From: Sipunculus nudus
Taxonomy: Eukaryota > Annelida > Sipuncula > Golfingiida > Sipunculidae
Direction of reading: 5' to 3'
Assembly: GCA_026874595.1 (NCBI GenBank)
Contig: CM049319.1
Span: 52,774,917-52,838,916, forward strand
Length of the DNA: 64,000 nucleotides
The stretch's first letter is position 1, and each line of letters opens with the position of its first letter. This document shows, one piece after another, positions 5,039 through 47,640 of the stretch. The position numbers and the translations under genes were made by a program. The notes under the pieces were generated by a model, which was given only the letters and a program-made list of their open reading frames with translations, searched no databases and was not told the DNA's origin.

Positions 5039-5316
5039 TCAGTTCTGCTGCCCGTTCTCGATGGCGTTGTTGTTTTCTGTGTCATCACGATATTTATCAA
5101 GTGATCGTCGCCTTGCGTTCATGAAGAAGTTTGCGACTGTTGAGACCTTCAGCCCGAGCTGCTCCGCAATCGTGGCCTGCATCTCCTTGCTTGGACGTTT
5201 GGTTTCCTTGAATATTGCCAGTAAGGTGCGACGCTGTATGTCAGTGAACACCAGCCGCGGCTTCTTTGGTGTGGGGTTCTCTGGTTTCACCTGTTCGGTG
5301 TCTTTCCTCTTGCAAG
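5039..5316 (-). CDS. onecut: ONECUT (HNF6-class) transcription factor, terminal exon with homeodomain
   Basis: Last coding exon of a ONECUT protein, a nuclear DNA-binding factor that in other animals combines one CUT domain with this divergent homeodomain and acts in neural and endodermal differentiation. The exon starts after a minus-strand acceptor ending tttacag and gives 91 residues plus TGA. The homeodomain is residues 16-75. L16, F20, N51 and R53 are all present, and the ONECUT hallmark pair F48/M50 is seen in FFMNARRR. The basic stretch CKRK opens the exon, as expected for the linker after the CUT domain. Homeodomain position 60 is Tyr, where vertebrate ONECUT proteins have Trp. The tail after the homeodomain is short and rich in Asn, Gln and Glu. 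The first two bases complete a split Ala codon, so the exon enters in phase 1. The open frame continues upstream to a Met at 5413, but that part is intron. Family identity is near certain. Confidence 0.97.
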
Positions 5317-10983: not shown

Positions 10984-11400
10984 ATATACATAACTAGTCC
11001 ACTCATACCATACATATACATGGCTAGTCCACATATGCAATACATATACATAGCTAGTCCACATATACTATACATATACATGGGTAGTCCACATATACTA
11101 TACATATACATGGCTAGTCCACATATGCAATACATATACATACCATACATATACATAGGTAGTCCATACATACCCTACATATACATGGCTAGTCCACATA
11201 TGCAATACATATACATGGCTAGTCCACATATGCAATACATATACATGGCTAGTCCACATATACCATACATATACATACCATACATATACATGGCTAGTCC
11301 ACATATACCATACATATACATGGCTAGTCCACATATACCATACATATACATAGGTACTCCATACATACCCTACATATACATGGATAGTCCACACAAACCC
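10984..11400. repeat. Minisatellite, 30-bp unit
   Basis: About 13 copies built on CATACATATACATGGCTAG then TCCACATATAC. Some copies have extra CCATACATATACATA inserts. Because the unit is a multiple of three and stop-poor, long frames open on both strands; they are artefacts. Confidence 0.95.
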
Positions 11401-11650
11401 TACATTTACATGACTACTCCACATATACCATACAATACATGGGTAGTCCATACAAACCCTACATTTACATGACTACTCCACATATACCATACAATACATG
11501 GGTAGTCCATACAAACCCTACATTTACATGACTACTCCACATATACCATACAATACATGGGTAGTCCACACAAACCCTACATTTACATGACTACTCCACA
11601 TATACCATACAATACATGGGTAGTCCATACAAACCCTACATTTACATGAC
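11401..11650. repeat. Minisatellite, 59-bp unit derived from the adjoining 30-bp array
   Basis: Copies begin at 11401, 11460, 11519, 11578 and 11637 (TACATTTACATGACTACTCC...), nearly identical over four full units. Each unit is a fused pair of diverged 30-bp monomers with one base lost. It looks like a younger expansion than the 30-bp block. Confidence 0.95.
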
Positions 11651-13400
11651 AACTCAAGCAAATGTGTAATTACCCATGTCTAAAATGTATTTCCCTATAA
11701 ACCAGACCATATTATTTTTCAGTTACCACTGCTTAACCTTTTAGTACATTATAAAACCTAATAGCTGGATGTGTTAATGTTATGATCTGGGAAAATATGT
11801 GGATAATACATTTTGATTGATAAATTACTACTAATTCTACTAATATTACCACTACTGAATATATATCTTTATATACCTAAATGTTGTTCACACAAACAAA
11901 ACCCTTCAAAATATTCACAAAACAAATGGGAAATACCAATTGGATATATTTATTTATCTATAAAAAAAAATAACCATTATTGTATCCATTTACATCTACA
12001 AGCATGGCTTCACTTTGCGGCTCCACTCCTAAGCTCATATGGCTTCACATAGTTACTCTAGTTAAATTACTGTAAAAAAATAAGATGGTTGCTGTCACTC
12101 GAATGTAAGTACGAGGTTATTAGGTGTCGTAAATAACAGGTACTTACAGCAATTGTGATCATGATTAAAGGGCTATACTGAAGGCAATTTACAAAATCAA
12201 CAGTGTGTTTGTTTTCAATTTGCTCACCACAGTTCAAATGCAATAAATGTTTTTTTTTCAAACCACCTATGCATATATAAATCTTTCTGTTGAAGTAATA
12301 ATTTTCTTAACTTTATCTTCAGTCTAAAATTGTCAATAAACTACATATTGGGGCAATAACCTTATATGGAATGAGATAATAAAATTACAACATTCAAGTT
12401 TATATTTCATAGCCTACTGGATTCTCCTTGTAATATGGATGTTTAGTTGATGTTACCAACCATGGATAGCCAAGTCAGTGACATAATTTCTTATATCTAA
12501 GAATGCTGCCCAAAACCAAATCAGCATCTATTATGGGTTTGTTTTTACTTAAAATCACTGGCACTGAATGTTGTCTAAAAATTACTGTTTCCTCGCACAT
12601 TAAATTAATTATATTACTCAATCATTTGGAAGGCGTTCTTGCTGTTTCCTTGTTGTTAATTAGATAATTTCCTAATTTTCCACGGCAATTACATTATGTC
12701 ATTCCAATGACACAGGTAATGGTGAGAACAAAGGGGGACACAAGGGTTATAACTGTCACAATGTGTATAAACAGAATTTACATTTAACCTATTAAAACTA
12801 ACATTTTACCTGATGATTTATTTCTTTAATACTTACTTTCTGTGCTTATGTTAATTTAATGACATACATATGCTAATATTCTGAATGAATTAAAGAATAT
12901 GCAATTCTGAAGAACAATATAAATTCTTGTTATGATGATTAAGTGAAATTCTCCAGTTTGAGCATTTTTTTTTTTAAATTTTTAGTGTATGAGGTTACAC
13001 TGTAATTGGTTACATCCTCCGGGAATGTACAGATCTTTTCCAGATATTTCTATATAATCTGATACTAAGATTAATCACTTATATTCATCTTCCTTTGATG
13101 CTTGTTCATTTTAATAACATCCTGGATTTACTTTGTTGTACTTAACCCAGTGCCAAGTGTATTGATGTTAACAATTACAGTAAAAGCTAGAAGACTTTAA
13201 GGATATAGAACTGTTGTCATTACAAGTGCACCACATATATTGGTTATGCAGCGAACATGATGACATATAAGTATTTTTTATAGGGTCCCAAAAGGATCAT
13301 ATAACATAAAGTGATATAATGAGTCCAAATAAATAGGAAACATGAAGCTCAATTATGTCACATGCATGACACTGAGAAAGAGACAAAACAGCGGACCAAG
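11651..13400. other. AT-rich intron with a homeodomain-site cluster near 12600-12730
   Basis: Mostly AT-rich filler. The segment around 12600-12730 holds TTGTTAATTAGATAATTTCC and GGCAATTACATTATGTCATT, a dense set of TAAT core words in a less AT-biased context; it is a weak regulatory candidate. No coding signal. Confidence 0.35.
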
Positions 13401-30370: not shown

Positions 30371-30880
30371 CTAATATTATAAATTATTATTTACCTTCAA
30401 ATTTACTACATCCTGAAAGTAAAGGGAATAAAGATTAAGTCCTACTACAATAACATGCGTTCCTAGAAAAATAAACTTTTTGTTATTACATCCCATTTTT
30501 AGCAGTTGGCTGGATGGCCAGCATAGATGATTAGAGTATGCATAATATATTCTTGTGAAATAAAGAAAATTTCTTTGGGGCCTGTTTTCAAAATTTTCTT
30601 TCAAGAAATGTATTTTCCACCCCATAACTTAAGGTTAATATATTAATTTGTCAACACACACTTATGCTAATTGGCAACTTTACAAACATTATGTTAAGGT
30701 TACAACTAATACTAATAATTAATTAACCAATATTATCTTATAAAATAGAATCTCTTCGACTTTCAACATTTAATCAGTTTACCAATCAGGAATAAGAGAA
30801 AATTTTGAGACTTATTAATATATATATATATATTTTTCTTTCATATAATTCACTGAAATATACAAAACAGCTCAAAACCA
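30371..30880. other. AT-rich intron
   Basis: Filler with a short (AT)n at 30818-30833. No feature recognised. Confidence 0.4.
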
Positions 30881-34760: not shown

Positions 34761-35050
34761 TAACGACGCATCCCTCACATCCATCTAGCATGAGCATGCT
34801 TAATCAACCAATCAGAAGCCAGTAATCAGTTGCGTGGCATCAAGCAGATTACTTCGGACAATTCTGTGGCAGCCAATTGCATTGCTAATGTATGGTTAGT
34901 AGTTAATCACTGCATTCATTAACTGATTAGTTGTTTTTTCTTCGCTGCTGTTAGCGTGAATGGTTAAATGCAGGCAGCATGCATTTATGACAAAGAATCA
35001 TGCAAAGTAAAAGGCTGTCGCATAGACAGTCGACATGCAAGTGTGGATCT
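34761..35050. other. Base-balanced block directly downstream of the microexon
   Basis: In transcript direction this block follows the microexon donor. It is rich in recognisable factor words: AACCAATCAGAA (CCAAT), TTAATCACTGCATTC, TTTATGAC (Cdx/Hox-like), ACAAAG (Sox core) and ATGCAAAG (octamer-like). It could be an enhancer, or intronic splicing-control sequence of the kind that flanks regulated microexons. Confidence 0.42.
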
Positions 35051-35059
35051 CCTACTCAC

Positions 35060-35095
35060 CCGTCTTAGTTTTGGGCTCGGGAAGTTCTTCGTTGC
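35060..35095 (-). CDS. onecut: Candidate 36-nt onecut cassette microexon in the CUT-homeodomain linker
   Basis: On the minus strand a pyrimidine-leaning tract ends in cacctag, followed by 36 nt and then the strong donor G|gtgagt. Read in phase 1 it gives (G)NEELPEPKTKT and leaves a final G. That G joins the CT at the start of the homeodomain exon to form the Ala codon. Both ends are phase 1 and the length is 12 codons, so including or skipping it keeps the frame. Included, the linker reads NEELPEPKTKT-A-CKRK; skipped, the CUT exon would join directly to A-CKRK. Vertebrate HNF6 is known to have an isoform with extra linker residues at this place, which makes a cassette exon plausible. The evidence is splice signals, phase and position only. 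Whether it is constitutive or alternative cannot be seen. Confidence 0.72.
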
Positions 35096-35350
35096 CTAGG
35101 TGATTAAGCAAGACAATGGAATCAACGTAAAGTTTAACAAAGTAAGCAACAGTCCAACAAAATATATAGAATATCTGTGAAGATAGCTACACTATGTCAG
35201 AAGAAGGATTTTCGACAGCTTAAAGTTCTTTGTCTACTGCATAAAAAATGTCAAATATGCATAAATAAAAAATAAACAAAGTATGGTAAGGTATGGTGCA
35301 GCATAAAACATAGGAGAAAACAGAGAGATGTGTTGTTGGATCATACAGCA

Positions 35351-35364: not shown

Positions 35365-35770
35365 CCAAAATATGTGACATCTTATCTTTAAACCTTTTGC
35401 TGCTAATGAAAGTTCAACCCAAATATCCCACAGGCACAGTAATCAAGTGTCTCCTCAGTAAACAAGACATGTGAAAAATATCTGTATTTAGCAAAAGTGA
35501 TCAACCTCAATCATAATGTACAAGTGAACTGAAATCAATTTTCTTCATGTTAACTGATATTTGTAAACAAGATGAGAGATGTAACAGGGGTAATTGTACA
35601 GATAAATCACTGAATCACCCAATAATCAATGATATAAAGTGTACAAGAGCCCGGAGGTCAAAACTAGAATAAGCTATTTGCTTCATAATCAATTGACATT
35701 CACTGCATCAAGCCAATTCTGTCAATAGCTGAAAAGTGAAAAATTAATCCACTCACATTGCAATGTCACC
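35365..35770. other. AT-rich intron
   Basis: No feature recognised between the CTCF-like word and the minisatellite. Confidence 0.4.
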
Positions 35771-36788
35771 AGCAGATATACATATTTGTATGTGTCTATC
35801 TGCAGATATACATATTTGTATGTGTCTATCAGCAGATATACATATTTGTATGTGTCTATCAGCAGATATACATATTTGTATGTGTCTATCAGCAGATATA
35901 CATATTTGTATGTGTCTATCAGCAGATATACATATTTGTATGTGTTTATCAGCAGATATACATATTTGTTTGTGTTTATCAGCAGATAAACATATTTGTA
36001 TGTGTCTATCAGCAGATATACATATTTGTATGTGTCTATCAGCAGATATACATATTTGTATGTGTCTATCAGCAGATATACATATTTGTATGTGTCTATC
36101 AGCAGATATACATATTTGTATGTGTCTATCAGCAGATATACATATTTGTATGTGTCTATCAGCAGATATACATATTTGTATGTGTCTATCAGCAGATATA
36201 CATATTTGTATGTGTCTATCAGCAGATAAACATATTTGTATGTGTCTATCAGCAGATATACATATTTGTATGTGTCTATCAGCAGATATACATATTTGTA
36301 TGTGTCTATCAGCAGATATACATATTTGTATGTGTCTATCAGCAGATATACATATTTGTATGTGTCTATCAGCAGATATACATATTTGTATGTGTCTATC
36401 AGCAGATATACATATTTGTATGTGTCTATCAGCAGATATACATATTTGTATGTGTCTATCAGCAGATATACATATTTGTATGTGTTTATCAGCAGATATA
36501 CATATTTGTTTGTGTTTATCAGCAGATAAACATATTTGTATGTGTCTATCAGCAGATATACATATTTGTATGTGTCTATCAGCAGATATACATATTTGTA
36601 TGTGTCTATCAGCAGATATACATATTTGTATGTGTCTATCAGCAGATATACATATTTGTATGTGTCTATCAGCAGATATACATATTTGTATGTGTCTATC
36701 AGCAGATATACATATTTGTATGTGTCTATCAGCAGATATACATATTTGTATGTGTCTATCAGCAGATAAACATATTTGTATGTGTGTC
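35771..36788. repeat. Minisatellite, 30-bp unit, 34 copies, with 540-bp higher-order repeat
   Basis: Units begin exactly every 30 bp with AGCAGATATACATATTTGTA. Variant units (AGATAAAC) occur at 35981, 36221, 36521 and 36761. The TTTGTTTGTGTTT variant occurs in the units at 35951 and 36491. The paired variants are each 540 bp apart, so an 18-unit block was duplicated. All three plus frames stay open because 30 is a multiple of three; the 357- and 361-codon frames are artefacts. Confidence 0.98.
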
Positions 36789-46110: not shown

Positions 46111-47640
46111 AACCAATGGGCTCATCCAGAACAAACCTCCAAACCATAAGCCTCATTCAGAACAAACCTACCAACCAATGGCCTCATCCAGATCAAACCT
46201 ACAAATCATAAGCCTCATCCAGAACAAACCTACCAACCAATGGCCTCATCCAGAACAAACCTACAAACCATAAGCCTCATCCAGAACAAACCTACAAACC
46301 ATAAAGCCTCATCCAGAACAAACCTACAAACCAATGGCTTCATCCAGAACAAACCTACCAACCAATGGCCTCATCCAGAACAAACCTACAAACCATAAGC
46401 CTCATAAGGAACAAACCTACAAACCAATGGCCTCATCCAGAACAAACCTACAAACCATAAGCCTCATCCAGGACAAACCTACAAACCAATGGCCTCATCC
46501 AAAAAAAAACCTACAAATCATAAGCCTCATCCAGAATAAACCTACAAACCATAAGCCTCATCCAGAACAAACCTACAAACCAATGGCCTCATCCAGAACA
46601 AACCTACCAACCAATGGCCTCATCAAGAACAAACCTACAAACCATAAGCCTCATCCAGAACAAACCTACAAACCATAAGCCTCATCCAGAACAAACTTAC
46701 AAACCATAAGCCTCATCCAGAACAAACCTACAAACCATAAGCCTCATCCAGAACAAACCTAAAAACCATAAGCCTCATCCAGAACAAACCTACAAATCAT
46801 ACCCTCATAAGGAACAAACCTACAAACCATAAGCCTCATCCAGAACAAACCTACAAACCAATGGCCTCATCCAGAACAAACTTACCAACCAATGGCCACA
46901 TCCAGAACAAACCTACAAACCAAAAGCCTCATCCAGAACAAACCTACAAACCATAAGCCTCATCCAGAACAAACCTACAAACCATAAGCCTCATCCAGAA
47001 CAAACTTACAAACCATAAGCCTCATCTAGAACAAACCTACAAACCATAAGCCTCATCCAGAACAAACCTACAAACCATAAGCCTCATCCAGAACAAACCT
47101 ACAAATCATAAGCCTCATCCAGAACAAACCTACAAACCATAAGCCTCATCCAGAACAAACTTACAAACCATAAGCCTCATCCAGAACAAACCTACAAACC
47201 ATAAGCCTCATCCAGAACAAACCTACAAACCATAAGCCTCATAAGGAACAAACCTACAAACCATAAGCCTCATCCAGAACAAACCTACCAACCAATGGCC
47301 ACATCCAGAACAAACCTACAAACCATAAGCCTCATCCAGAACAAACCTACAAACCATAAGCCTCATCCAGAACAAACTTACAAACCATAAGCCTCATCCA
47401 GAACAAACCTACAAACCATAAGCCTCATCCAGAACAAACCTACAAACCATAAGCCTCATCCAGAACAAACCTACAAACCATAAAGCCTCATCCAGAACAA
47501 ACCTACAAACCATAAAGCCTCATCCAGAACCAACCTACCAAGCACAGGCCTCATCCAGAACAAACCTACCTAGCAAAAGCCTCATCCAGAACAAACCAAC
47601 AAACCACAAGCCTCGTCCAGAACAAACCAAAAGCCTCATG
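46110..47640. repeat. Minisatellite, 31-bp unit, about 50 copies
   Basis: The unit is CATAAGCCTCATCCAGAACA then AACCTACAAAC. Two main variants differ at the start, CCAATGGCCTC and CCATAAGCCTC. The first is common on the left and almost absent on the right. The 114-codon plus frame at 46334-46678 is a repeat artefact. Confidence 0.97.

Follow-up and report, generated by a model that had tools for sequence, protein, structure and literature searches.

The stretch of DNA analyzed in this work (64,000 nt, referred to below as the window) corresponds to C14:52774917-52838916 within the 1.43-Gb genome of Sipunculus nudus, and it contains the homeodomain exon of a onecut gene on the minus strand. 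The coding part of this exon (window positions 5039..5316, minus strand) comprises the remainder of the linker, the homeodomain and the stop codon (Pfam PF00046, E-value 1.4e-11), and a genome search returned only a single match for it, namely itself. The Pfam CUT search of the genome, with 6 candidates scored, reported 4 matches. One of them, C14:52862917-52863144 (minus strand), is the onecut CUT exon, located on the same contig 24 kb past the end of the window; the other three are grouped on C7, presumably as in a Cux gene. One onecut gene was found in the genome. The 3' end of its CUT exon reads ..CGA TTA GCT G|gtaagg (..RMSALRLA G) and is in phase 1, at C14:52862907 (minus strand). The homeodomain exon starts at 5316 (minus strand) with tctttacag|CTTGCAAGAGG, the first codons being tctttacag|CT TGC AAG AGG. 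Since the CUT exon ends with a phase-1 G and the homeodomain exon starts with CT, their direct joining completes an Ala codon. The intron between the two exons is 82,674 nt long.

Within this intron, at window positions 35060..35095 of the minus strand, we identified a 36-nt candidate cassette microexon, which is open and in phase 1 at both ends, with canonical AG/GT borders. It falls within the 51-nt limit for a cassette microexon (<=51 nt), has symmetric phase and contains no stop codon. Read on the minus strand from 35095 to 35060, its borders are ...cttaatcacctag|GCAACG...AGACGG|gtgagtagg, with the acceptor reading ..ttaatcacctag and the donor gtgagtagg. The 3' splice-site region tgtcttgcttaatcacctag (35096..35115, minus strand) carries a UGC at position -15, while 35096..35174 (minus strand) comprises the acceptor AG and the preceding AG exclusion zone of 77 nt. 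The 5' splice site gtgagt (35054..35059, minus strand) is among the strongest in the intron, where 8 of 5370 GTs score as high, itself included. The search of the 1.43-Gb assembly with the microexon region gave a single match, again only itself. The microexon would divide the intron into 52,895 and 29,743 nt, so that the CUT exon precedes it by 52.9 kb and the downstream intron runs from 35059 to 5317. All of this bears out the preliminary description of this DNA, which had proposed a 36-nt minus-strand segment with these borders, in phase 1 at both ends, whose last G completes the split Ala codon of a homeodomain exon about 29.7 kb away (here 5316, minus strand, behind the 29,743-nt intron). 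A nested acceptor AG at 35087-35088 inside the microexon could give rise to a 27-nt form (ELPEPKTKTA), but with a poor acceptor (-5.5 bits). Recursive splicing at the microexon was considered and rejected, as the exon start is not GT.

The predicted protein consequence is confined to the linker between the CUT domain and the homeodomain. The form that skips the microexon, ..ALRLAACKRKDTEQ.., has the linker LRLA-ACKRKD and aligns without gaps through the linker with HNF6 (2d5v, E-value 2.9e-86) and ONECUT2 (8t0f). The inclusion form, ..ALRLA-GNEELPEPKTKT-ACKRKDTEQ.., exhibits one clean insertion of 12 residues between ..LRLA and ACKRK. The insertion into this linker had been predicted before and stands, with a correction to its length: the added peptide is the 12-residue GNEELPEPKTKT and not the 11-mer NEELPEPKTKT, which was one residue short because the glycine from the split codon had been omitted. 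Its characterization as acidic, then basic, agrees with the sequence, and the inserted piece adjoins the basic CKRK. According to the accessible part of a study of ONECUT2 (PMC11490551), the crystal structure shows disorder in the linker of that protein (residues 409-428), and the intact protein binds DNA at 7 nM, compared to 1380 nM for the unlinked CUT plus HOX domains. A crude polymer estimate (Gaussian chain with a persistence length of 4 A assumed) suggests that lengthening the linker from 20 to 32 residues would alter the local concentration by a factor of 0.6 to 3.8 when the span is between 15 and 45 A, with the sign of the change depending on the span. As the estimated change is only of this size, tuning of affinity or of spacing preference would be expected rather than an on/off effect. 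The charges brought in by the inserted piece might also act.

To put the splice sites in perspective, we scored every open candidate of compatible phase and 3-51 nt in length on both strands of the intron, with generic weight matrices from outside this genome, by which the real homeodomain acceptor scores only 0.85 bits. By these matrices the microexon has an acceptor of 3.4 and a donor of 7.6 bits (the CUT donor: 6.0 bits). It is second by summed score among the 3469 sense candidates, two of which, itself included, reach its sum, and it is the only one of them to reach both of its own splice scores; none of the 2692 candidates on the antisense strand of the intron reaches the sum. The control sequence (15 real 10-kb stretches elsewhere, both strands, 300 kb of strand, which may contain true exons) yielded 3 such candidates among 10,696, which amounts to 0.83 per 82.7 kb, and dinucleotide shuffles of the intron yielded a mean of 0.22 equal-scoring candidates per intron, with two or more in 3 of 100 shuffles. 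With ~0.83 equally good candidates expected and 2 found, the splice sites and the frame alone do not go beyond chance. The G+C content of the microexon (53% vs 32% and 43% in the 100 nt on either side) is weak evidence, as 8.8% of the 36-mers in the intron are equally rich.

The same intron contains a second candidate microexon, at 30395-30412 (18 nt, peptide GCSKFEA), with a splice score slightly higher than that of the 36-nt element. No TGCATG is found downstream of it, and it is probably a chance occurrence. A scan extended to 210 nt, which could have revealed a larger exon resembling that of HNF6beta in this intron, gave only three sense candidates with a score of at least 9 bits (18, 36 and 36 nt).

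The region downstream of the microexon contains three copies of TGCATG, the RBFOX motif, at 35034..35039, 34999..35004 and 34978..34983 (minus strand; 20, 55 and 76 nt downstream of the microexon, respectively). All three are on the transcribed strand, the first one 20 nt past the donor, and no TGCATG occurs on the opposite strand from 34978 to 35039. Three UGCAUG sites are thus located within the ~100 nt downstream where the motif is expected for RBFOX-enhanced exons. The hexamer is not generally enriched in the window (49 observed vs 54 expected, both strands). The intron contains 40 copies in the sense and 31 in the antisense orientation, and the only place on its sense strand with three of them within 100 nt is downstream of the microexon; there is no such place on the antisense strand. 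The frequency of positions followed by three TGCATG within 100 nt is 1.7e-4 in the control stretches, where it derives from one cluster in one of the 15 regions, with two overlapping sites. Among 100 dinucleotide-shuffled introns, a cluster of three sites arose in five, never next to an equal-scoring candidate, and in none of the 100 was an equal-scoring candidate followed by as much as a single TGCATG. If all candidates of up to 210 nt with a score of 0 or more are considered, at least two TGCATG within 100 nt downstream are found, out of 240 on the sense strand, only for the microexon and its own nested 27-nt form, and for 0 of 152 on the antisense strand. The 3 equal-scoring candidates from the control sequence carry 0, 0 and 1 TGCATG downstream. 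The joint expectation for the microexon together with the cluster is ~1.4e-4 (0.83 x 1.7e-4), which places the combination beyond chance; as the cluster was noticed after the fact, a guessed tenfold correction to cover other motifs and other sides leaves ~1e-3. Among motifs in the intronic sequence 3' of human alternative micro-exons, TGCATG alone is described as highly over-represented, up to twofold (accessible part of PMC4317164).

On the upstream side, an AG exclusion zone as long as the 77 nt preceding the microexon acceptor is found for 0.9% of the 4908 intron AGs, and its combination with a UGC at -30 to -6 for 25 of the 4908; the respective values for the 16,581 AGs of the controls are 1.5% and 0.4%. 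The long zone and the UGC at -15 near the 3' splice site are features of the eMIC type.

Several tandem arrays were observed in the window. A very regular 30-bp minisatellite at 35770-36785 (33.9 copies, 98% matches, long open frames on both strands) lies upstream of the microexon at a distance of ~0.7 kb. A 31-bp array is found at 46121-47628 (48.5 copies, 90% matches) and a degenerate one with ~30/59-bp units and open frames on both strands at 10984-11655.

The candidate shares features with two regulated classes of known microexons. Human micro-exons controlled by RBFOX tend towards weaker splice sites and flanking introns of greater length, as far as the accessible text of PMC4317164 describes them. 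The candidate resembles the RBFOX-regulated micro-exons of human brain, as characterized there, in its size (<=51 nt), divisibility by three, long introns and TGCATG just downstream; however, the splice sites of the human exons are weaker on average, whereas its 5' splice site is strong. For eMIC exons, the features reported are a long AG exclusion zone, a UGC close to the 3' splice site, a pyrimidine tract with UCUC and a strong CUAAY branch point; in the fly, such exons have short introns and weak 5' sites (PMC8797185, accessible part). With these neural microexons of the SRRM3/4 type the candidate shares the long AG exclusion zone and the UGC close to the 3' splice site. It differs from the fly representatives by its long introns and strong 5' site, and from the eMIC exons in general by lacking UCUC and CUAAY, which they favour: inspection by eye revealed neither within 100 nt upstream.

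With respect to its position in the gene, the candidate is comparable to an exon of mammalian HNF6. In the rat, the HNF6 gene is divided into three exons separated by more than 10 kb, and its middle exon encodes 26 residues that are specific to the beta form and located between the cut domain and the homeo domain (PMC11800625, accessible part). The available portion of PMC8391549 reports that linker length varies by alternative splicing, with the isoforms loosely named OC-1 and OC-2. The likeness to the HNF6 linker isoforms, suggested in the preliminary description, is apt in view of the location of the rat middle exon (same part of PMC11800625). Like HNF6beta exon 2 (mammalian ONECUT1), the microexon would be a cassette between the CUT-containing and homeodomain exons that lengthens the same linker, in frame in the case of the microexon, and as far as the available description goes both have long flanking introns; they differ in size (26 residues vs 12 here). 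The microexon would most likely work like the HNF6beta linker exon of mammals. The isoforms of HNF6 are reportedly different in DNA binding, to judge from the title of a 1998 article by Lannoy. Among the matches listed in open papers, we found no invertebrate onecut linker isoform or onecut microexon, which is weak evidence of absence; for the combination of onecut, alternative splicing and microexon, the matches listed in the open literature show onecut and microexon together in a reference list only. Onecut is likewise confined to the reference lists of PMC5703972 and PMC11568689, and the relevant text of PMC6561314 deals with isoforms of Pou2f2.

A candidate trans-acting factor is encoded in the genome. 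An RBFOX RRM sequence used as a query identified an RBFOX-type RRM exon at C2:71336888-71337052 (60% identity over query residues 20-75, E-value 2.3e-11). The five best matches of its peptide in the PDB are all members of the Fox-1 family (E-value ~4e-14; next best 5.7e-10). A neighbouring exon piece, QFGPIIDVEIIFNERGSK, at C2:71338641, 1.6 kb upstream of the RRM exon and bordered by acag and gtaggt, is a weak match alone (E-value 0.013); we take the two as parts of one putative RBFOX gene. A second RRM match of like score is on C119, which looks bacterial. Searches with the Pfam families Fox-1_C and SRRM_C (PF15230) reported no match in the genome, nor in 14 control genomes.

Altogether, ten contigs of the assembly are seemingly bacterial (C60, C61, C62, C66, C72, C74, C75, C89, C119 and C123). 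Cytochrome oxidase subunit I is represented by nine full-length uninterrupted frames of near-equal score on eight contigs (two of them on C89) and a tenth on C123. The search for mitochondrial COX1 did not find it: the ten full-length frames look bacterial, and there is one short piece with a stop. The frame on C60, the one compared, has a best identity of 59% among 80 of at least 589 GTDB relatives, from which very near records may be missing. These contigs could possibly derive from a divergent, perhaps multi-strain symbiont.

Taking the cis features together, we consider it probable that 35060-35095 (minus strand) is a regulated, frame-preserving cassette microexon of onecut. The original exon call is well supported at the level of sequence by the frame, the position, the single genome match and the cis architecture, which is of the RBFOX type and partly of the eMIC type and had not been brought up in the preliminary description. 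Points that speak against this reading are the chance-level splice scores, the recognition of the TGCATG cluster only after the fact, the strong 5' splice site and, in comparison with the eMIC exons of the fly, the long introns. The alternative that a pseudo-exon in a very long intron acquired its borders and frame by luck and is never spliced appears unlikely. It gains from the ~0.83 candidates of such score expected in 82.7 kb of real control sequence and from the slightly higher score of the 18-nt candidate at 30412, but neither that candidate (0 TGCATG) nor those of the controls (0, 0 and 1) have the cluster, the joint expectation is only ~1.4e-4, and only 25 of 4908 intron AGs combine an AG-free zone of such length with UGC at -30 to -6. 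A special case of such a coincidence, counted within its probability and by itself very improbable, is that the TGCATG cluster functions as a DNA-level enhancer or belongs to some other array, next to which the exon-like borders are fortuitous. Long introns of developmental genes are generally known to hold enhancers; however, the orientation of all three sites on the transcribed strand, starting 20 nt past the donor, with none on the other strand (34978-35039), is not what this explanation would lead one to expect.

We assign a similarly low probability to the possibility that the exon is real, yet always or nearly always included, representing a lineage-specific extension of the linker and no switch. 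The strength of the 5' splice site, which ranks in the top 8 of the 5370 intron GTs, would suit such an exon, and the phases of the junctions are compatible with inclusion and skipping alike. On the other hand, skipping restores the exact linker length of HNF6 and ONECUT2, and the enrichment of downstream TGCATG has been reported for alternative, not constitutive, micro-exons (PMC4317164, accessible part).

A regulated cassette microexon at this position suggests the following mechanism. An RBFOX protein would bind the UGCAUG sites and promote inclusion of the microexon in RBFOX-expressing cells. Such cells are neurons or muscle. A factor of the eMIC type possibly acts through the UGC close to the 3' splice site. 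In other cells the microexon would be skipped, resulting in the canonical linker. Inclusion would lengthen the disordered tether between the CUT domain and the homeodomain from ~20 to ~32 residues, and the longer tether could shift the readiness of both domains to engage one DNA site. The predicted consequence is a shift in affinity and site choice, rather than switching onecut on or off.

If the exon is real, an invertebrate alters the DNA-binding geometry of onecut by splicing, at the same position as mammalian HNF6. We speculate, with more doubt than confidence, that an RBFOX-controlled, perhaps eMIC-assisted, switch of the onecut tether length may be used across bilaterians, the HNF6beta exon and the microexon being either homologous or independently re-invented within the same intron. 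The three UGCAUG sites constitute a ready, mutable cis code, which makes the distinction between an ancestral and a convergent linker switch, as well as a retargeting of the factor by the switch, directly testable. Onecut proteins are involved in specifying neurons across the animal kingdom (accessible part of PMC10515288), and a tether-length switch, if true across bilaterians, would connect the splicing factors of neurons with the selection of DNA sites by a neuronal transcription factor.
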